A stretch of 64,000 nt of DNA from Glycomyces tenuis DSM 44171 (lineage in GTDB: Bacteria > Actinomycetota > Actinomycetes > Mycobacteriales > Micromonosporaceae), in assembly GCF_000427885.1 (NCBI RefSeq), contig NZ_ATYW01000001.1:364699-428698 (forward strand), read 5' to 3'. Below are positions 12,521-56,276 of this stretch, one piece after another. A model generated the notes under the pieces. It ran no database searches and had not been told where the DNA came from. It worked only from the letters and a program-made list of their open reading frames with translations. Numbering within the stretch: the stretch's first letter is position 1; each line of letters starts with the position of its first letter. Position numbers and translations under genes: made by a program.

Positions 12521-14992
12521 ATGCCGGGTCAACGCCCTCTGGCGCTCGCCGCCGCCCTGCTCATGCCCCTCGTCGCGCTGCCCGCCGCGGCGCAGGAGAC
12601 CGACTCCGAGGCGACCCGGGGCGTCTGGCTCGTCGAGTTCGACCCCGGCGTCTCGGCCTCCGACTTCGAGGACGCCGTCGCCGGGATGGACGTGACGATC
12701 CGCCACGACTTCGAGCGGGTGTGGAACGGCGTCTCCATCGGCACCGACGCGGCCACCGCCCGCCGCCTCGAATCGCTCGGCGCGGTCGACCACGTCTGGG
12801 CCGACGTCGAGTTCGCCGCCCCCGACCTGCCCGAGCAGCGGACCGAGCTCGCGCTCGCCACCGAGACCACGGGCGCCGCCGAGGCGCACGAGCACGGCAT
12901 CGACGGCAGCGGCGTCCGCGTCGGCGTCATCGACACCGGCATCGACTACACCCACCCCGACCTCGGCGGCTGCTTCGGCGACGGCTGCCGCGTGGTCACC
13001 GGCACCGACTTCGTCGGCGACGACTACAACTCCGACGACCCCGAGCACGCCGAACCGGTCCCCGACGACGACCCGGCCGACTGCGGCGGCCACGGCACCC
13101 ACGTCGCCGGGATCGTCGGCGCCGACGGCGAGGTCACCGGCGCCGCCCCCGATGTCGAGTTCGGCGCGTACAAGGTCTTCGGCTGCGAGGGCAGCACCAG
13201 CGCCGAGGTCGTCATGCGGGCCTTGGAGGCCGCCCTCGTCGACGACATGGACGTCGTCAACCTCTCACTGGGCCAGGCGTTCCAATGGCCCGGCTACCCG
13301 ACCTCCGAGGCCGCCGACACGCTCACCGAGCAGGGCGTCACGGTCGTCGCCTCGATCGGCAACGACGGCGAGTCCGGCGTCTGGGCCGCCGCCGCGCCCG
13401 GCGTCGGCACCGACGTCATCGGCGTCGCCTCCACCGACAACCCCGCCGAGCGCTTGAGCGCCGCCCGCGTCGAGGCCCTCGACCGCAGCATCGGCTACAA
13501 GCCCATCGCCACCGTCCCCGAACCGGAGGCGGGCGCCGTCACCGACCCGCTCGCCTGGCTCGGGCGGGCCTGCGCCGACGACGCCTCCGAGAACGACGTC
13601 GCGGGCAAGACCGCCTTGATCGTGCGCGGCACCTGCACCTTCAAGGAGAAGTACGAGCGGGCCGTCGCCGAGGGCGCCACCGCCGTCGTCATCTACAACG
13701 ACCGCTCCGGGCCCTTCGGCGGCGCGGGCGTCGACGACCTCGGCGTCCCGGCGGTGGGCATCACCGACACCGACGGCGAGGACCTGCGCGACCTGGCCGC
13801 GATCGGCGCCGAACCGCGCCTCGAGTTCACCGGCGGCACCGTCATGGTCGATCTGCCGCGCGCCGGGCTCGCCTCGGAGTTCACCTCCTACGGGCCCGCC
13901 CCGGACCTGACGTTCAAGCCCGACCTGTCCGCGCCCGGCGGCGGCATCTGGTCGACCTACCCGGTCGAGGACGGCTCGTACACGTCCCTGTCCGGTACGT
14001 CGATGGCCTCGCCGCACGTGGCCGGCGCCGCCGCGCTGCTGCTGGAGGCCGAACCGGGCCTCGACCCGGCGGCCGTGCGGACCCGCCTTGCCAACACCGC
14101 CGAGCCCGTCGAATGGGGCGAGGACCCGGACCTCGGTCATCTGGAGGCGACGCACCGCCAGGGCACCGGCGTCATCGACGTGATGGCCGCGCTCGGCGCC
14201 GAAGGGGCCGTCACTCCCAGCGGCGTCAACGTCGGCGACGGCACCGGCACGCGCACCTTCGAGCTCGAACTGGCCTCGCGGCCGGGAGCGGAGTGGCCGG
14301 GCGAGACCTACCGCCTGCGGCACCAGACCGCCGTGGCGACCACCGGCGACATCCGCGCCACCGAATTCCACGTCGCCGAGCCCGAGGTGTCGTTCGAGCC
14401 CGAGACCGTCGAGCTGCGCCCCGGCGAGAGCGAGACGGTGACGGTGACGGTCACCCCGGGCGCCGAACTGCCCGAAGGGAGCGTCTTCGGCGGGCGCGTC
14501 GTCGCCGAACCCGAGGACGGCGGCGTGCCGCTGGCGGCCGCGTACTCCGGCTACTTCGGCGACTACCTCGCCATCCCGGTCCTGGAGCACCCCGACTACC
14601 CGAAGCTGGCCGTCGAGGTCGCCGAGGACCCCGAGACCGGCGAGGCCGAATACCGCGACCTCGAGGAGGGCGAGACCTTCGGCATCGCCGCGGGCCCGCT
14701 GCCGACCGCGCTGCTCTTCCTCAACCACCACCCGGCCGTGGTGGAGGTCGACGTCGAGCACGTCGACACCGGCGAGGTCGTCGAGTGGCACCGCGAGGAG
14801 TTCGTGGGCCGCTCGGCGGGACCCGACGACACGGTCGCCGTGGACCTCGCCCGCTTCGCCGAGGAGCTGCCGGGCGTGCTGGAGCCCGGCGAGTGGCGCA
14901 TGGAGGTCCGCGCGCTCAAGGCGCTCGGCGACGAGTCGAACCCCGAGCACTGGGAGACGTGGCGCTCCCCGGCGTTCACGCTCACCGCGTGA
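12521..14992 (+). CDS. Secreted subtilisin-like serine protease with PA domain
   Basis: An 823-residue S8 protease. A Sec signal peptide ends near AAAQ (residue 25). An inhibitor-I9-like propeptide covers about 35-100. The catalytic triad is Asp138 (VIDTGIDYTHPDL), His191 (GGHGTHVAG) and Ser494 (SGTSMASPHVAG). A protease-associated (PA) domain is inserted between His and Ser at about 340-440 (RGTCTFKEKYERAVAEGA). The region after 560 is beta-rich and ends in Fn3-like folds. This order matches Vpr/C5a-peptidase-like enzymes. Extracellular protein degradation is expected. ATG 12521 follows GGAGAGGA. The gene ends 5 bp before the convergent SDR. Strict acidic composition suggests an extracellular product. 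Confidence 0.94.
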   Translation: MPGQRPLALAAALLMPLVALPAAAQETDSEATRGVWLVEFDPGVSASDFEDAVAGMDVTIRHDFERVWNGVSIGTDAATARRLESLGAVDHVWADVEFAAPDLPEQRTELALATETTGAAEAHEHGIDGSGVRVGVIDTGIDYTHPDLGGCFGDGCRVVTGTDFVGDDYNSDDPEHAEPVPDDDPADCGGHGTHVAGIVGADGEVTGAAPDVEFGAYKVFGCEGSTSAEVVMRALEAALVDDMDVVNLSLGQAFQWPGYPTSEAADTLTEQGVTVVASIGNDGESGVWAAAAPGVGTDVIGVASTDNPAERLSAARVEALDRSIGYKPIATVPEPEAGAVTDPLAWLGRACADDASENDVAGKTALIVRGTCTFKEKYERAVAEGATAVVIYNDRSGPFGGAGVDDLGVPAVGITDTDGEDLRDLAAIGAEPRLEFTGGTVMVDLPRAGLASEFTSYGPAPDLTFKPDLSAPGGGIWSTYPVEDGSYTSLSGTSMASPHVAGAAALLLEAEPGLDPAAVRTRLANTAEPVEWGEDPDLGHLEATHRQGTGVIDVMAALGAEGAVTPSGVNVGDGTGTRTFELELASRPGAEWPGETYRLRHQTAVATTGDIRATEFHVAEPEVSFEPETVELRPGESETVTVTVTPGAELPEGSVFGGRVVAEPEDGGVPLAAAYSGYFGDYLAIPVLEHPDYPKLAVEVAEDPETGEAEYRDLEEGETFGIAAGPLPTALLFLNHHPAVVEVDVEHVDTGEVVEWHREEFVGRSAGPDDTVAVDLARFAEELPGVLEPGEWRMEVRALKALGDESNPEHWETWRSPAFTLTA

Positions 14993-48096: not shown

Positions 48097-48236
48097 TCAT
48101 CCACAGGCGGTGGATGAAGAATCCGCAGATCAGACGCGCAACATGAGCAGGAATTCCGTTTCTGTCCACAGCTTGTCCACAGGCCGAGCCGAGTTATCCA
48201 CAGCTTGTCCACAGCCTTGTCCACAGCTTGTCCACA
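48097..48236 (+). promoter_or_regulatory. DnaA-box array upstream of dnaB
   Basis: In one orientation stand TCATCCACA (48097), CTGTCCACA (48162), TTGTCCACA (48173), TTATCCACA (48194), and three more TTGTCCACA (48205, 48217, 48228). TTATCCACA is the classical box and TTGTCCACA the actinobacterial one. The last six start 11, 21, 11, 12 and 11 bp apart, near helical phasing, so bound DnaA could polymerise along one face. It ends about 70 bp before the dnaB promoter region. Either DnaA-controlled dnaB transcription or DnaA titration fits. Confidence 0.88.
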
Positions 48237-48314
48237 GGGTTGTTTGCGCCGACGGCCCGAACGACATAGCGTCATTGACGCCGCTCGGTGTCGTACCCGG
48301 GCGGTAGATTCTCC

Positions 48315-48350
48315 ATGAACGCACGGTGTCCGGAGGGGGTGGCGAAATGA
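48315..48350 (+). CDS. Possible 11-residue leader peptide before dnaB
   Basis: ATG 48315, four bases after a TAGATT hexamer (48305-48310), opens a frame of 11 codons (MNARCPEGVAK) whose TGA (48348-48350) overlaps the dnaB ATG. The frame contains the dnaB ribosome-binding site. It could couple translation of dnaB to a leaderless upstream start. The short length means chance cannot be excluded. Confidence 0.35.
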   Translation: MNARCPEGVAK

Positions 48351-51061
48351 CCGACGTGTCAACCGAAGGCGGCTACTCGCGAGGTTCGAACGGGGCGCGA
48401 ACCGCCGGTCCGTACTTCGACGACCCGCCGCAGGACGACCCCTTCGGCGGCGCCCGCGCCTACGAGCGCACCCCGCCTCAAGACCTCGCGGCCGAGCAGT
48501 CGGTCCTCGGCGGCATGCTCATGAGCAAGGACGCCATCGCCGACGTCCTCGAGACCCTCAAGTCGAGCGACTTCTACAAGCCCAGCCACGGCATCATCTT
48601 CGACGCCATCCTCGACAAGTTCGGGAACGGCGAGCCCGCCGACGCGGTCACCATCGCCGCCGCGCTCGCCGACTCCGGCGACCTCGGCAAGGTCGGCGGC
48701 GGCCCCTACCTGCACGACCTCCTCGACGCGGTCCCCACCGCCGCGAACGCCGGCTACTACGCCCGCATCGTCAAGGACAAGGCGATCCTGCGCCGCCTCA
48801 TCGAGGCCGGCACCAAGGTCGTCCAGTACGGCTACGGCGGCGGCCAGGGCGGCCGCGACATCGACGACCTGGTCGACCTCGCCCAGCAGGCCGTCTACGA
48901 CGTCACCGACAAACGCCAGAGCGAGGACTTCTCGATCCTGTCCGACCTCCTCCAGCCGGCCATGGACGAGATCGAGGCGATCGGCGCCAACCAAGGCGTC
49001 CTGACCGGCGTGCCCACCGGCTTCGCCGACCTCGACCGGCTCCTGTCGGGCCTCCAGCCCGGCCAGCTCATCATCGTCGCCGGCCGCCCCGGCCTGGGCA
49101 AGTCCACCGCCGCGATGGACTTCATGCGGCACGCGTCCCTCCACCACCGGCACGCCGCCGCCCTGTTCAGCCTGGAGATGAGCAAGCTCGAGATCGTCAT
49201 GCGCCTGCTCAGCGCCGAGACCCGCGTCCCGATGCACGTCCTGCGCTCGGGCGATCTGTCCGACGACGACTGGACGCGCCTGGCCAAGCGGATGGGCGAC
49301 ATCTCCGAGGCGCCGCTGTTCGTCGACGACACCGCGTCGATGACGATGATGGAGATCCGCGCCAAGGCCCGGCGGCTCAAGCAGCGCCACGACCTCAAGC
49401 TCATGGTGGTCGACTACCTCCAGCTGATGACCTCGCCGAAGAAGGTCGAGTCGAGGCAGCAGGAGGTCTCCGAGATCAGCCGCGGCCTCAAGCTGCTGGC
49501 CAAGGAGATCGAATGCCCGGTGATCGCGGTCGCCCAGCTCAACCGCGGCCCCGAGCAGCGCACCGACAAGCGCCCGCAGCTGTCGGACCTCCGCGAGTCC
49601 GGCTGCTTGACCGCCTCGACAAGGCTGCTGCGAGCCGACACCGGCGCCGAGACCACCCTCGGGGAGCTGGTGTCGTCGGGCGCCGAGGACGTGCCGGTCT
49701 GGGCCGCCGATGAGCGGCTGCGGATCGAACCGCACACGCTCACCCACGCCTTCCCCAGCGGCCGGAAGGAGGTCTTTCGAATGACGCTGACCTCCGGCAA
49801 GGAGATCGAGGCCACGGCCAACCACCGGTTCCTCACCGTCGACGGATGGGTGGAGCTGCGCGATCTCGCCGTCGGCTCCCGGATCGCGACCCCCCGCGAG
49901 GTGCCCGAGCCGCTCAAGGCCGAGGAATGGCCGGAGGCGGAGGTCGTCCTCCTCGCCCACATGATCGGCGACGGCTCGATGGTGAAACGCCAGCCCATCC
50001 GCTATGCCAGCGTGGACGAGGCGAACCTCGAAGCGGTGACCAAGGCGGCGGAGCACTTCGGGGTCACGGCTGTCCGCGACGATTACGCTGCGGCCCGAGT
50101 GGCGACACTCAGACTCCGGGCGCCGTACCGTCTCACTCACGGCAAACGGAACCCGATCGCCGCCTGGCTCGACTCGCTCGGGCTGTTCGACAAGCGCTCA
50201 CACGAGAAGTTCGTGCCCGCCGGGGTCTTCTCCCTGCCGAACGATCAGGTGGCCCTGTTCCTGCGGCACCTGTGGGCGACCGACGGGAGCGTGCGTTGGG
50301 ATGCCAAGGGAGGCCAGGCTCGGATCTACTACGCCTCGACCAGCAGACGGCTGGTGGACGACCTTCGCCTGTTGTTGCTTCGATTCGAAATCCAATCTTC
50401 TATCACCGTGGGGAAGAAGGGCGGTTATCGCGATCAGTATCAGCTATGGATTCATGATGGAGCAGACCAGCTGAAGTGGTTGCGACAGATCGGTGTCCAC
50501 GGGGAACGCGGTGCACGAGCGGAAGTGTGCAAGGCAGAACTCGAAGTTCGTCGGAGGCGGATTGGGCGTGACACTCTGCCTGCGGAGGTCTGGAACCGCA
50601 TTCGTGCGTTGATGGCCGATCGCGGGGTGAGTCGTGCGCAGCTGTGCCGACAGGTCGACATTGCCAATCGCGGGGATGCGATGTGGAAGAGCGGGCCGAG
50701 CAGGCCACGCCTGGCCAAGATCGCCGAGGTCCTGTCCGATCAGGATCTGACTCTTCTCGCAGTCAATGACGTCTTCTGGGACAAGGTCGAGTCGATCGAG
50801 CCGATCGGCGAGCAGGACGTCTATGACGCTACCGTGCTCGGGGTTCACAACTTCATCGCAAATTGTGTCATAAGTCACAACTCGCTTGAGCAGGATGCGG
50901 ACGTGGTCATCCTGCTGCACCGCGACGACTACTACGACAAGGAGTCGCCGCGCGCCGGGGAGGCCGATTTCATCGTCGCCAAGCACCGCAACGGGGCCAC
51001 CGACACGATCACGGTGGCCGCCCAACTGCACCTGTCCCGCTTCGTCGACATGGCGGTGTGA
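48347..51061 (+). CDS. dnaB: Replicative DNA helicase DnaB with intein
   Basis: A 904-residue precursor; after removal of the 426-residue intein it gives a 478-residue helicase. The N-terminal DnaG-binding domain starts at about residue 44 (PQDLAAEQSVLGGML). The helicase domain has Walker A GRPGLGKST at 246-254, the Walker B region LMVVDYLQLM and VAQLNRGPEQR. The extein breaks at DLRESG/SLEQDAD. GGAGGGGG precedes ATG 48347. It unwinds the chromosomal fork. Both the upstream DnaA boxes and the adjacent ribosomal operon fit an origin-proximal location. The window shows no dnaA or dnaN. Confidence 0.97.
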   Translation: MTDVSTEGGYSRGSNGARTAGPYFDDPPQDDPFGGARAYERTPPQDLAAEQSVLGGMLMSKDAIADVLETLKSSDFYKPSHGIIFDAILDKFGNGEPADAVTIAAALADSGDLGKVGGGPYLHDLLDAVPTAANAGYYARIVKDKAILRRLIEAGTKVVQYGYGGGQGGRDIDDLVDLAQQAVYDVTDKRQSEDFSILSDLLQPAMDEIEAIGANQGVLTGVPTGFADLDRLLSGLQPGQLIIVAGRPGLGKSTAAMDFMRHASLHHRHAAALFSLEMSKLEIVMRLLSAETRVPMHVLRSGDLSDDDWTRLAKRMGDISEAPLFVDDTASMTMMEIRAKARRLKQRHDLKLMVVDYLQLMTSPKKVESRQQEVSEISRGLKLLAKEIECPVIAVAQLNRGPEQRTDKRPQLSDLRESGCLTASTRLLRADTGAETTLGELVSSGAEDVPVWAADERLRIEPHTLTHAFPSGRKEVFRMTLTSGKEIEATANHRFLTVDGWVELRDLAVGSRIATPREVPEPLKAEEWPEAEVVLLAHMIGDGSMVKRQPIRYASVDEANLEAVTKAAEHFGVTAVRDDYAAARVATLRLRAPYRLTHGKRNPIAAWLDSLGLFDKRSHEKFVPAGVFSLPNDQVALFLRHLWATDGSVRWDAKGGQARIYYASTSRRLVDDLRLLLLRFEIQSSITVGKKGGYRDQYQLWIHDGADQLKWLRQIGVHGERGARAEVCKAELEVRRRRIGRDTLPAEVWNRIRALMADRGVSRAQLCRQVDIANRGDAMWKSGPSRPRLAKIAEVLSDQDLTLLAVNDVFWDKVESIEPIGEQDVYDATVLGVHNFIANCVISHNSLEQDADVVILLHRDDYYDKESPRAGEADFIVAKHRNGATDTITVAAQLHLSRFVDMAV
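49604..50881 (+). mobile_element. DnaB intein with LAGLIDADG homing endonuclease
   Basis: A 426-residue in-frame insertion at precursor residues 420-845. Splicing block A starts at Cys420 (CLTASTRLL), block B is ATANHRFLTVDGW, blocks F and G are VYDATVLGVHNFIA and the terminal SHN, with Ser as the first C-extein residue. The two LAGLIDADG helices are VVLLAHMIGDGSM and LFLRHLWATDGSV, each with its acidic residue, so the endonuclease looks intact. The site (ESG/SxEQ) is the same as in the well-known Synechocystis DnaB intein. The last third (about 50340-50880) has lower G/C third positions than dnaB, a sign of separate origin. Confidence 0.93.
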
Positions 51062-53354: not shown

Positions 53355-54095
53355 TCAGCCGACGGTGCCGAGGAGCGCTTCGCGCATCGCGGCGGGCCGG
53401 TCGGTGAAGATGAGCTCGGCGCCGGCCTCGGCCATTCTGCGTGCGGTGTCGGCGTCGTTGACGGTCCAGACCCACGCCTGGTAGCCCTGCTCGTGGGTGC
53501 GTTCGATGAACGCGGGGGCGGACTCGACGTGGTCGACGCGGGAGCTGAGGACCTGGACGCCTTCGGGCGGGCGGCGGAAGGGGTATTCGAAGATCCACAC
53601 CAGGGGGGTGTCCTGGTCGAGTTCGCGCCAGGTCCTCAGGGCGGCCCGTGAGAAGGACATCACGGTGGCGTCGATCTTCGGCCAGCGGTTCAGGGTCTCC
53701 CACAGCCGCATCTCCAGGCGCGGCCCGAACTTGGAGGGGTGTTTGGCCTCGATGAGGAGTTTGAGGTCCTTGCCGGAGTCGGCGACGAGGCCGAACAGGT
53801 CTTCGAGGGTGGGGATGCGGGCGGCCTCGGGGTCGTCGCCGCAGTCGGGGTGGAGGGCGGCGAAGTTGAACTCCCGCAGCTGGGCGAGGGTGAGATCGGA
53901 CACGGCGCCCTTGCCGTCGGAGGTGCGTTTGACGGTGCGGTCGTGGTGGAGGACGAGATGGCCGTCGGCGGTGAGCCGGATGTCGCATTCGAATCCGTCG
54001 GCGCCTTCGACGATCGCCTGCCGGTAGGCGGCCAGGGAGTGCTCGGGGAGGAATTCGTTGGCGCCGCGGTGGGCGGCGATCAGCGGTTGCGACAC
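53355..54095 (-). CDS. Glycerophosphodiester phosphodiesterase
   Basis: A 246-residue GDPD barrel. The first catalytic histidine-arginine is in IAAHRGANEFLPEHSL, the metal-binding region is GFECDIRLTADGHLVLHHD with the second histidine. LLIEAKH and WTVND are further conserved elements. It hydrolyses glycerophosphodiesters to glycerol 3-phosphate and an alcohol. No signal peptide is seen, so it is cytoplasmic. GTG 54095 lies six bases after TATCGT (leaderless). It is divergent from larB across a tandem repeat array. Confidence 0.93.
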   Translation of the reverse strand: MSQPLIAAHRGANEFLPEHSLAAYRQAIVEGADGFECDIRLTADGHLVLHHDRTVKRTSDGKGAVSDLTLAQLREFNFAALHPDCGDDPEAARIPTLEDLFGLVADSGKDLKLLIEAKHPSKFGPRLEMRLWETLNRWPKIDATVMSFSRAALRTWRELDQDTPLVWIFEYPFRRPPEGVQVLSSRVDHVESAPAFIERTHEQGYQAWVWTVNDADTARRMAEAGAELIFTDRPAAMREALLGTVG

Positions 54096-54141
54096 ACCAT
54101 GACGATAACCGCTTCGCGTGGACGGGGCACCACGTAACGGT

Positions 54142-54406
54142 GTCGGGATCGGTGGTGGTGGAGAACCAGCCGGTTGGGTGGTCTTCAGTCGGGTTCGGGT
54201 GGTGGTGGGAGACGGGCCGGTTGGGTGGTCTTCAGTCGGGTTCGGGTGGTGGTGGGAGACGGGCCGGTTGGGTGGTCTTCAGTCGGGTTCGGGTGGTGGT
54301 GGGAGACGGGCCGGTTGGGTGGTCTTCAGTCGGGTTCGGGTGGTGGTGGGAGACGGGCCGGTTGGGCGGTCTTCAGTCGGGTTCGGGTGGTGGTGGGAGA
54401 CGGGCG
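54142..54406 (+). repeat. Tandem 47-bp repeat array with G-quadruplex motifs
   Basis: Five nearly identical 47-bp units start at 54172, 54219, 54266, 54313 and 54360; a degenerate partial unit precedes from 54142. Each unit holds GGGTTCGGG followed by TGGTGGTGGGAGACGGG, that is four G3 tracts with loops of 3, 7 and 4 bases, a canonical G4 motif on the plus strand. The only change seen is in the last units. It lies in the divergent interval between the GDPD gene and larB. Confidence 0.93.
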
Positions 54407-54423
54407 GGTGACAGGATCGGATC

Positions 54424-55110
54424 GTGCAGCACGATGAGCAGGGATACACGGACCTCGGTTGGGCCAGGATCGACACGGGCCGTCCGGCGCGGACCGGGGC
54501 GGCCGAGGCGGTCTACGCCGCCGGGAAGACGCCGGAGCAGGTGGTCGCCGCGCTCCGGGCGCTCCGCGAATCGCACCCCGGCAGGGTCGCGGTCGCCACG
54601 CGGTGCGACGCGGCCTGCGTCGAGCTGATCGAGGCGTCCTTCGGCGCCGAGGCGCGCTGCGAGGCCGGGGTCGCCGCGGTCGGCGACTTCCCCGAGCCGG
54701 AGGCCGGGCCGCTCGCGGTGGTGTGCGCCGGGACCTCGGACCTGCCGGTGGCGAAGGAGGCCGAGATCGTCGCGAGGGCGAACGGGCTCGACGCGCACCT
54801 GGTGGCCGACGTCGGCGTCGCGGGCCTGCACCGCCTGCTGGGCGAGCTGCCGAGCCTGCGGGAGGCGGCGTGCGTGGTCGTCGTGGCGGGCATGGACGGG
54901 GCGCTGCCGAGCGTGGTGGCGGGCCTGGTGAGCGCGCCGGTGGTGGCGGTGCCGACGTCGGTGGGCTACGGGGCGGCGTTCGGCGGGCTGGCGCCGCTGC
55001 TGACGATGCTGAACTCCTGCTCGCCGGGGGTGACCGTGGTGAACATCGACAACGGGTTCGGCGCGGCGATGGCCGCGGTCCGCATCATGGGTGTGAAGGC
55101 GGAGCGGTGA
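54424..55110 (+). CDS. larB: Nickel-pincer cofactor biosynthesis protein LarB
   Basis: A 228-residue PurE-like protein. LarB carboxylates and hydrolyses nicotinic acid adenine dinucleotide to make the dicarboxylated pyridinium precursor of the nickel-pincer cofactor. VVCAGTSDLPVAKEAE, DVGVAGLHRLL, VVVAGMDGALPSVVAGL and VPTSVGYGAAFGG are the diagnostic PurE/LarB stretches. GTG 54424 has a CAGGAT six bases upstream. Its stop overlaps the larC start (GTGA). The G4 repeat array ends 18 bp before the start, so it lies in the promoter or 5' leader. Confidence 0.92.
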   Translation: MQHDEQGYTDLGWARIDTGRPARTGAAEAVYAAGKTPEQVVAALRALRESHPGRVAVATRCDAACVELIEASFGAEARCEAGVAAVGDFPEPEAGPLAVVCAGTSDLPVAKEAEIVARANGLDAHLVADVGVAGLHRLLGELPSLREAACVVVVAGMDGALPSVVAGLVSAPVVAVPTSVGYGAAFGGLAPLLTMLNSCSPGVTVVNIDNGFGAAMAAVRIMGVKAER

Positions 55111-56276
55111 CGGTCGCGTGGTTGGACTGCTCTGCTGGTGCGAGCGGTGACATGTTCCTGGGCGCCTTGGTCGGCGCCGGTGTCGATCTGGCCGTCATGC
55201 AGGACGCCGTGGACGCACTCGGCGTCGAGCGGATCCGGCTGAGCTCGCGGACGGTGCGGCGGCACGGCCTGGAGGGTGTGAAGGTCGACGTCGAGGTCCC
55301 CGACGTGGCGGTGGACCGGCGCTGGCGGGCGATCCGCGATCTGATCGCGGAGGCCGATCTCGGCGGCGAGGTGCGGCGGAGGGCGACCGAGGCCTTCCGG
55401 CGCCTGGCGCAGGCCGAGGCCGCCGCTCACGGCATCGACGTCGACGAGGTGCACTTCCACGAGGTGGGGGCCCTCGACTCGATCGCCGACGTCGTGGGCG
55501 CCGCGGCGGGCCTGGAGGCGCTCGGGGCCGAGCGGGTCACCGCGTCGACGGTGACGGTCGGCGGCGGGACGACGCGCGGCTCGCACGGGTCGATTCCGCT
55601 GCCCGCGCCCGCGGTGCTGCGGGTCCTGGCCGACGCCGAGGCGCCGTCGGTCGGCGGTGTGCCGTATGAGGCGTGCACGCCGACCGGCGCGGCGATCATC
55701 GCGGCGAACGCCGACGCGTTCGGGCCGATGCCGGAGATGGTCGTGGAGCGCGTGGGCGTGGGCGCGGGCGGGCGCGACCCCGAGGAGCGGGCGAACCTGC
55801 TGCGGATCGTCGTGGGCCGCGAGGTGGGCGCGGCGGTGCGCCGACCGGTCGTCATCGAGACCAATGTGGATGATCTGGATCCGCGGCTGTGGCCGCAGGC
55901 GCTGGCGGCGCTGCTGGAGGCGGGGGCCTCGGACGCGTGGCTGACGCCGATCCTGATGAAGAAGGGCCGTCCGGCGCACACGGTGCACGTGCTGTGCCGG
56001 GCCGAGGCGGTGCGGGCGGTGCGCTCGGCGCTGGTGCGGCATACGACGACGATCGGGATGCGCTCCTACGAGGTCGACAAGCACGCGCTCGAGCGGCGGT
56101 ACACCTCGGTGGAGGTCGACGGCTACGAGATCGGCGTGAAGGTGGCGCTCGACGACGGCGAGGTCGTGAACGCCTCGGTGGAGTACGAGGACGCGGTGGC
56201 GGCCTCGGCGGCGCTCGGGCGGCCGGTCAAGGTCGTGATCGCGCAGGCGAGCGCGCTGGCGGCCGAGCGGTACTGA
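55107..56276 (+). CDS. larC: Nickel-pincer cofactor nickel-insertion protein LarC
   Basis: A 389-residue LarC in one continuous frame, without the frameshift that splits it into LarC1/LarC2 in Lactobacillus. It starts WLDCSAGASGDMFLGAL and has EVHFHEVGALDSIADVVG, ETNVDDLDPRLWPQALAALL and MKKGRPAHTVHVLC, all LarC signatures. It inserts nickel into the pyridinium bis-thioacid using CTP. The GTG start overlaps larB. LarE, which adds the sulfur atoms, is not in the window, nor is a LarA racemase, so the enzyme that uses the cofactor lies elsewhere. Confidence 0.94.
   Translation: MTVAWLDCSAGASGDMFLGALVGAGVDLAVMQDAVDALGVERIRLSSRTVRRHGLEGVKVDVEVPDVAVDRRWRAIRDLIAEADLGGEVRRRATEAFRRLAQAEAAAHGIDVDEVHFHEVGALDSIADVVGAAAGLEALGAERVTASTVTVGGGTTRGSHGSIPLPAPAVLRVLADAEAPSVGGVPYEACTPTGAAIIAANADAFGPMPEMVVERVGVGAGGRDPEERANLLRIVVGREVGAAVRRPVVIETNVDDLDPRLWPQALAALLEAGASDAWLTPILMKKGRPAHTVHVLCRAEAVRAVRSALVRHTTTIGMRSYEVDKHALERRYTSVEVDGYEIGVKVALDDGEVVNASVEYEDAVAASAALGRPVKVVIAQASALAAERY

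Follow-up and report, generated by a model that had tools for sequence, protein, structure and literature searches.

The intergenic region between larB and a divergently transcribed GDPD-family gene of Glycomyces tenuis DSM 44171 contains a tandem array of G-rich 47-bp units, which raises the question of whether the array is a device of the genes beside it or has an origin unrelated to them. A preliminary description had favored the former, proposing that both DNA and RNA quadruplexes may form in the promoter or leader of the nickel-cofactor genes and GDPD and that copy number could act as a phase or dosage switch. Our analysis of the window (the whole 64,000-nucleotide stretch of DNA) and of related genomes points to the latter. 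With a probability of roughly 80%, we consider the array to be a local tandem amplification of one small, genus-specific mobile repeat, whose family targets start codons. The original observation is right, and its regulatory reading is mostly unneeded.

Tandem Repeats Finder places the array at 54142-54409, with a period of 47, 5.7 copies, 96% matches and a score of 478; among its 15 rows for the window, the runner-up reaches 81. The five tandem units noted earlier are indeed present before larB (54170-54404), together with a decayed partial unit (Table 1). Units 1 to 4 are identical, and unit 5 differs from them by one base. The word GGGTTCGGGTGGTGGTGGGAGACGGG occurs once in each full unit, five times in the window, for a shuffle expectation of 0.00. 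All five full units also contain the canonical G-quadruplex motif that had been described, as a sequence motif. The number of such motifs in the window is close to chance (12 G3N1-7 motifs on both strands, versus a mean of 10.65 in 20 order-1 random runs at 70.6% G+C); the unusual part is that five identical motifs occur in register. The G-rich strand is the plus strand, and the sense of the family to which we assign the units (tail, then head) corresponds to the minus strand, directed toward the GDPD gene.

Elsewhere in the window, a cluster of TTGTCCACA/TTATCCACA words, which we take to be DnaA-box-like, occupies positions 48163-48243 and is also reported by Tandem Repeats Finder as an 11-bp repeat. 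The cluster lies about 83-163 bp upstream of the start (48326) of an ORF that is presumably dnaB-like. This ORF (48326-51061, 911 aa) looks intein-bearing, with a break after LRESG and a segment that opens with CLTASTRLL and closes with CVISHNS.

Table 1. Coordinates of features at the larB locus, numbered from the first letter of the window.
Feature	Position	Strand	Basis
Tandem array, short-form Glycomyces interspersed repeat (probable assignment)	54142..54404	-	Repeat finding and dispersed relatives
Decayed partial unit (GTCGGGATCGGTGGTGGTGGAGAACCAG), 28-nt remnant of a further unit	54142..54169	-	
Unit 1, G4 motif 54191-54216 on plus strand	54170..54216	-	
Unit 2, G4 motif 54238-54263	54217..54263	-	
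Unit 3, G4 motif 54285-54310	54264..54310	-	
Unit 4, G4 motif 54332-54357	54311..54357	-	
Unit 5, terminal, adjoins larB; one change; G4 motif 54379-54404	54358..54404	-	
larB, GTG start	54424..55110	+	NF033503, 246.6 bits (cut-off 175)
larC, GTGA overlap with larB	55107..56276	+	TIGR00299, NF052512, PF01969
GDPD-family phosphodiesterase gene, divergent, GTG start	53355..54095	-	PF03009
NAG(G/T)AT box, here CAGGAT, 6 nt 5′ of larB start	54412..54417	+	Conservation
TATCGT box, 6 nt 5′ of GDPD GTG	54102..54107	-	Conservation; putative function

The repeat is dispersed. A BLAST search with the array found 14 places in its own genome including itself, i.e., 13 others. Allowing up to three mismatches, the 22-bp core GGTTCGGGTGGTGGTGGGAGAC occurs at 21 places in this genome, the five of the array included, while the reversed control occurs at none. 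When up to two mismatches are allowed, the core pattern is present in 20 of 22 Glycomyces genomes, with controls at 0 throughout; there are 19 matches in the window genome, 15 in G010, 12 in G015, 7 in G020, 5 in G018 and 0-3 in each of the other 17. The exact core was found in 13 stretches in a scan of 84,980 species genomes, which may omit the window's own record. Eleven of these stretches belong to named Glycomyces and two to the MAG DX1.bin69, which a genome search placed in the genus Glycomyces.

Copies of the repeat occur in two forms that have a head and a CCCGTCGCCC block in common. On the C-rich strand, the family consists of a C-rich tail, a hairpin (in the long form only) and the head CCGAACCGGAGTGAACRCTG. 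The family head CCCGAACCGGAGTGAACRCTG contains a Shine-Dalgarno-like GGAGT(G/A)A. The short form is about 44 bp, and its G-rich strand reads, by eye, TGAGyACAGyGTTCACTCCGGTTCGGGTGGTGGTGGGnGACGGGnGGGC. The long form, which was discovered via model matches to the left half alone, is given on the other strand by CCCGCACCCGTCGCCCC(G/A)CCCA, a variable GC-rich hairpin and CCCGAACCGGAGT(G/A)AACRCTG. Of 25 copies measured, 24 span 62-74 bp and one spans 50 bp. Covariation supports the hairpin: 97.2% of cells are paired, compared with 78.6% after shuffling, and the covariation score is 0.417 compared with 0.110 (in each case, 0 of 500 shuffles were as high). Changes on both sides are confined to two of five pairs, and shuffled alignments yield as many.

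A model of the short form has 42 matches at E≤0.1 in the window genome, including the units of the array. The top match in the window is unit 5 (44.2 bits, 54367-54408), which is among the 34 rows from which this model was built. The long-form model, which uses sequence only, detects nothing in the window with an E value under 0.018, so it is the short form that ties the array to the family. Across the genus, the long-form model has 132 matches, which include a few short-form copies, in 21 of 22 genomes (0 to 16 per genome, with none in G004). It has no match in 39 genomes of other genera from the same family and order. In a class-wide sample outside the genus, 15 of 393 genomes each had one weak match (E 0.0018-0.0095), where about four were expected by chance; the counts of both model searches are lower bounds, given the strict filters applied to sets of over 40 genomes. 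The repeat family is genus-wide and, as far as searched, genus-only. We refer to it as GIRU (Glycomyces interspersed repetitive unit), a label that we coined for this report. At two loci (L151 and L220), copies begin right at the 3′ end of a tRNA-like gene (GGTTCGAGTCCTGGTGGGCCA).

Many copies of this family lie at start codons. With up to two mismatches, the head pattern has 120 matches in 21 of the 22 genomes, and its reversed control has a single match in total. We studied 89 distinct heads, the remainder being either not fetched or merged on the basis of identical 20 nt on both sides. In 55 of the 89, the head abuts, in a fixed register (ATG at the head end plus 0, or GTG at the head end minus 1), the start codon of an ORF that is at least 40 aa long, compared with 34 of 2670 random positions (1.3%); since many copies are orthologous to one another, the 89 heads represent fewer independent events. 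No start codon is present at 26 heads, and the remaining 8 have another register or a short ORF. Of the 49 heads that first came to light through loci retrieved with the head pattern, 41 abut a start codon. The genes downstream look unrelated to each other; judging by their N-termini, we take them to resemble aroK, response regulators, ilvN, tpiA, fur, argR-like genes and genes of sugar metabolism.

Such a distribution might also be expected of a family that does not move, in which CCGAACCGGAGTGAACGCTG is a favored ribosome-binding leader that selection keeps at start codons. GGAGTRA is positioned at the distance of a ribosome site from the start codons, and 75 of the 89 heads retain it. Nonetheless, we regard this explanation as very improbable, given the sites at which the element is absent. 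Joined-flank queries for seven insertions located the corresponding gene pairs in relatives, and both filled and empty alleles were recovered for six. At the tpiA site, the whole 70-bp stretch is absent from most orthologues: 19 of 22 genomes are without the element, and G012, G017 and G018 are filled. The presence of start regions on both sides of the element also argues against a selected leader. For example, the empty allele of site 5 reads ...CCTGGC ATGAGCAAATTC and the filled one ...TCTGGC ATGAGG(element)GCTG ATGAGTAAATTC, or, in brief, GGC|ATGAGCAAA versus GGC-ATGAGG...GCTG-ATGAGTAAA. In this allele pair, the element sits on the start codon, with a copy of the start region on either side. 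A start codon is found at both ends in 25 of 39 long-form copies. On average, 4.00 nt are common to the left and right start regions of a copy, versus 2.69 nt when pairs are shuffled (0 of 2000 shuffles were as high), and 3.91 versus 2.59 nt (1 of 2000) when three copies flagged with another copy of the element as right neighbor are left out. Five of the 25 share no nucleotide of the start region because one side has ATG and the other GTG. Since insertion sites are shared between species, many copies must be old.

In copies with two start codons, the old start would open a mini-ORF that traverses the element. In 24 of 25 copies, the stop of this frame falls in a range from 6 nt upstream of the next gene to 11 nt inside it, and in the other the frame continues for 117 nt. 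Nine copies end in TGATG (a 1-nt overlap), three have a 4-nt overlap, eight stop 5-6 nt short of the gene and four reach 8 or 11 nt into it. We rejected the idea of a conserved small peptide, as the frame and sequence of the mini-ORF vary between copies.

Other copies are located in frame inside protein-coding genes, where a leader is not needed. In recG, a 45-bp short-form insert adjoins the Walker A motif (ELAGTRPPVSHHHPNQSELCPPMHRLLQGDVGSGKT), and seven of seven aligned relatives are without the insert. The recG gene of the window's genome (L126) has a net in-frame insert of 15 residues immediately before the Walker A stretch. Inserts of 48 bp occur in a hemW-type gene, where five of five aligned relatives lack the insert, and in thrC of the window genome (G000), where G018 is also filled and six of seven aligned relatives are without it. 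In coaBC, there are in-frame copies in G010 (45 bp), G015 and G018, and none in four of four aligned relatives. The motif print recovered only the G018 copy; those of G010 and G015 are within open ORFs whose C-termini are nearly alike, and the G010 ORF matches both CoaBC domains. Finally, two-unit in-frame inserts are present in a LytTR gene and in a polymerase-A-type gene, each absent from the one aligned relative. The copies at the RecG Walker A motif and near the threonine-synthase-like start illustrate that such repeats can add peptide to conserved enzymes.

A mobile repeat could instead be a MITE-type element, i.e., fragments of a transposon with terminal inverted repeats that are moved by the transposase of an insertion sequence. 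At locus L003, the core indeed lies within a larger repeat with the ends TAGGGCCTGTTTAAGC and GCTTAAACAGGCCCTA, and L005 and L008 are similar inside. However, we see no terminal inverted repeats by eye in the printed copies, and the larger L003 repeat may simply carry an inserted small copy, so we consider a MITE-type element unlikely. The larger L003 repeat, which encloses the core, is in the window's genome, and the larger repeats at L003, L005 and L008 contain two or three core copies and a GC-rich hairpin spacer. The L003 type may be a MITE into which the small repeat has inserted.

The start-codon-targeting repeat thus described is amplified differently at larB in different species. In draft assemblies, where units may have collapsed, and with one genome per species, we count five units in the window genome, four in G015 and three in G020. 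These three genomes form one clade in a tree of larB DNA (support 98/97). The first unit is divergent in both G015 and G020. With first units included, mean unit identity within a genome is 0.991 in the window genome, 0.904 in G015 and 0.738 in G020, while the identity of the window genome's units is 0.861 to those of G015 and 0.770 to those of G020. When the divergent first units are left out, the G015 units are identical and the two G020 units differ by one base. These within- and between-species identities suggest that the units turn over within each lineage. The earlier proposal that copy number could vary therefore holds between species, at 5/4/3 units; for the phase or dosage switch that was attached to it, we claim no support.

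Near-identical units in one genome that differ between species are what slippage with turnover predicts, and the array could accordingly be seen as an ordinary minisatellite that arose from local sequence by replication slippage, without any mobile element. The chance of this being the full explanation is slim indeed, in that many other loci carry the unit sequence, and several arrays have a common core but different spacers and periods. Arrays with spacers of their own include L127 and L152 (three units of 55 bp each), L142 (four of 54 bp), L107 (three of 53 bp), L131 (two of 48 bp) and L210 (four of about 57 bp). The long form is also arrayed, with six model matches about 78 bp apart on contig 209 of G021 (12626-13082). 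Slippage explains the amplification step only, and the dispersed copies disfavor it as an account of the whole. By eye, internal units of several arrays end in GACGGG followed by the spacer, while the last unit has GACGGG followed by NGGG. This difference suggests that the breakpoint during duplication is at the end of the G block.

We now consider the surroundings of the array. A NAG(G/T)AT box occurs 6-7 nt ahead of the larB GTG in all 22 Glycomyces species, whether the array is present or absent, and the matching place before the GDPD start has TATCGT in 18 and TAAGGT in 2 of the 20 species whose GDPD start was located; the patterns were picked after these upstream regions had been viewed, and the figures are raw counts. 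We infer from this conservation that both boxes are -10 elements of leaderless larB and GDPD transcripts. Alternatively, the AGGA in the larB box could be a ribosome site. As the -10-like boxes are so close to both genes, the array is probably outside both mRNAs, which makes the RNA quadruplex previously envisaged in a larB leader unlikely. Downstream, larB and larC are probably coupled, since the larC start is inside the larB stop. Rfam has no match to 53900-54700 at E values up to 1. Three single units, folded as RNA, did no better than shuffles (z-scores of 1.15, 0.18 and -0.16, the third query carrying an error at its start), so we claim no RNA hairpin for the array unit.

At the array, a gap of about 19 nt separates the tail from the larB GTG, and one of about 46 nt separates the head side from the GTG of the GDPD gene. 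We see no start-codon insertion at the array itself, and its head (CCCGAACCCGACTGAAGACC) is without GGAGTGA. A translational role cannot work here given the loss of GGAGTGA, and, with no start codon abutted either, only the mobile origin and the amplification apply to larB.

The surroundings also bear on the regulatory reading, in which the array is a cis-regulatory element specific to larB or GDPD: its G-quadruplexes, or an operator present several times, would tune the nickel-cofactor genes, and the number of units would act as a dosage switch. Consistent with this reading, the array lies directly 5′ of the conserved -10-like box, and the unit number differs between species. A core-like GGTTCGGGTGGCGGCGGG also precedes larB in another clade, of 15 species, in six of them within two mismatches and elsewhere in weaker forms seen by eye; this may be an older insertion or a chance likeness. 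There is moreover a precedent in M. tuberculosis, where the length of tandem repeats upstream of fpg1 went with expression, according to excerpts of the source (PMC2734929). By contrast, the unit of the array is also present within or ahead of many genes unrelated to larB, and in G001, G003 and G021 the same gene pair is separated by just a few tens of bases, with the repeat absent. (In G010 and G019, the larB spacer is longer and, by eye, lacks the core.) Because the unit is a repeat dispersed throughout the genus, the array is probably no switch made for larB, and we consider regulation specific to this locus distinctly unlikely. A site for a larB-only regulator or the operator of a regulon is likewise disfavored, since copies are scattered over many unrelated locations and also lie within genes such as recG and hemW. 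The view of the array as a device of the nickel-cofactor genes is thus not upheld.

The G-quadruplex motif is a property of the wider family, not of this array alone. Four G-tracts are present in the tails of both forms, with different loops: GGG-TGGTGGT-GGG-nGAC-GGG-n-GGG in the short form and GGG-n-GGGG-CGAC-GGG-TGC-GGG in the long form. In loci from L202 onward, which were obtained by model, head pattern or flank search, the motif is kept in 37 of 46 long-form tails, whereas simulations that place an equal number of changes at random keep it in 19.4 ± 2.2 (maximum 27, 2000 runs). In the same loci, 51 of 73 copies have the motif upstream of the head; shuffling the letters yields it in 12.2 of 73, and 11 of 1186 control windows contain it. 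It is also present in 30 of 34 short forms, a biased set that was picked by hand from 82 rows (alignment A1) of a G-rich pattern search with free Y/N positions. The long-form tails are the fairer test of conservation. Two C positions outside the tracts diverge as little as the tracts themselves do (0.02 and 0.00), so the pattern may reflect a general mutational bias. We think it possible, although doubtful, that Glycomyces has an independently arisen class of mini-cistron elements that target start codons, and that these move or amplify by way of the conserved G-quadruplex (or i-motif) in their tail. Under that reading, the motif would mark the element for copying and would drive tandem growth whose breakpoints fall where the G4 block ends, as the arrays with differing spacers at several loci suggest.

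Our preferred explanation, a small mobile repeat amplified at larB, suggests how the copies would persist. At start-codon insertions, ribosomes that begin at the old start would translate the mini-ORF through the element, end near the displaced start and re-initiate there with the help of the element's own ribosome site, such that the gene would still be expressed. Copies inside proteins would be tolerated through the open frames of the element. Movement presumably depends on an enzyme. In the ancestor of the three species, a short-form copy would have inserted into the stretch that separates the divergent promoters of GDPD and larB, and tandem duplication at the unit ends would then have enlarged it into an array, with turnover of units. 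Its effect on larB would probably be limited to altered DNA upstream of the retained core promoter, and the array may be neutral for this gene.

Several known systems resemble the Glycomyces family in part. Among the titles and abstract openings listed in literature searches, two of which covered the top 15 of 42,034 and of 7,223 papers, none concerned interspersed repeats in Glycomyces or elements outside mycobacteria that resemble MIRUs (mycobacterial interspersed repetitive units). The family has in common with bacterial MITEs and REP-type repeats that it is tiny, non-autonomous and dispersed, with many copies beside genes, but no terminal inverted repeats are seen and it prefers start codons. 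G-quadruplex minisatellites consist of tandem G-rich units with canonical four-tract motifs. The larB array has the same type of motif, known here from its letters, but its unit is a dispersed element. As a caution, it is advisable to check for dispersed copies before G-rich promoter arrays are called regulators of the next gene.

RPEs (Rickettsia palindromic elements) are selfish repeats found in frame inside conserved protein genes and elsewhere, and measure 105-146 bp with terminal inverted repeats, according to excerpts of the sources (PMC2229807, PMC10969869 for their locations; PMC2229807 for size and ends). The in-frame Glycomyces copies in RecG, HemW-, ThrC-, CoaBC-, DNA polymerase A-type and LytTR genes are reminiscent of these. 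However, the Glycomyces element is shorter (about 44-74 bp), lacks visible terminal inverted repeats, and its single units, unlike RPEs with their long stem-loop, fold as RNA no better than shuffled sequences.

The closest likeness in described behavior is to the MIRUs, which were described from mycobacteria. To our knowledge, MIRUs contain no palindrome, and we know of no explanation so far for their movement or their preference for start codons. In the excerpts available from one source, MIRUs are 40-100 bp long; of their 41 loci in H37Rv, 12 are polymorphic in repeat number, and higher mRNA generally accompanies longer repeats before fpg1 (PMC2734929). Excerpts of another say that MIRUs are mobile and insert at start codons, their internal ORF being coupled to the gene (PMC12548453). 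The Glycomyces family matches the size range of roughly 40-100 bp (short form about 44 bp, long form 62-74 bp with one copy of 50) and inserts at start codons (55 of 89 heads). MIRU arrays vary in unit number between isolates at some loci; the Glycomyces data, with arrays at several loci and 5/4/3 units at larB, compare species. Its mini-ORFs have the MIRU-like 4-nt overlap in 3 of 25 copies, but the 1-nt TGATG is the commonest arrangement (9 of 25). Unlike MIRUs, the long form has an internal hairpin with apparent compensatory changes, and the family further differs in its conserved G4 motif in the tail, its copies inside proteins and its occurrence in another genus. We do not call the family MIRU, because the coupling register differs, the long form has a hairpin and the likeness was drawn from described behavior, not from a comparison of sequences. 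Nevertheless, the Glycomyces family appears to work like MIRUs. Found in soil actinomycetes, at sites that occur both filled and empty, such a MIRU-like family offers a second and, as far as is known, harmless test system for start-codon targeting, mini-ORF coupling and tandem growth.
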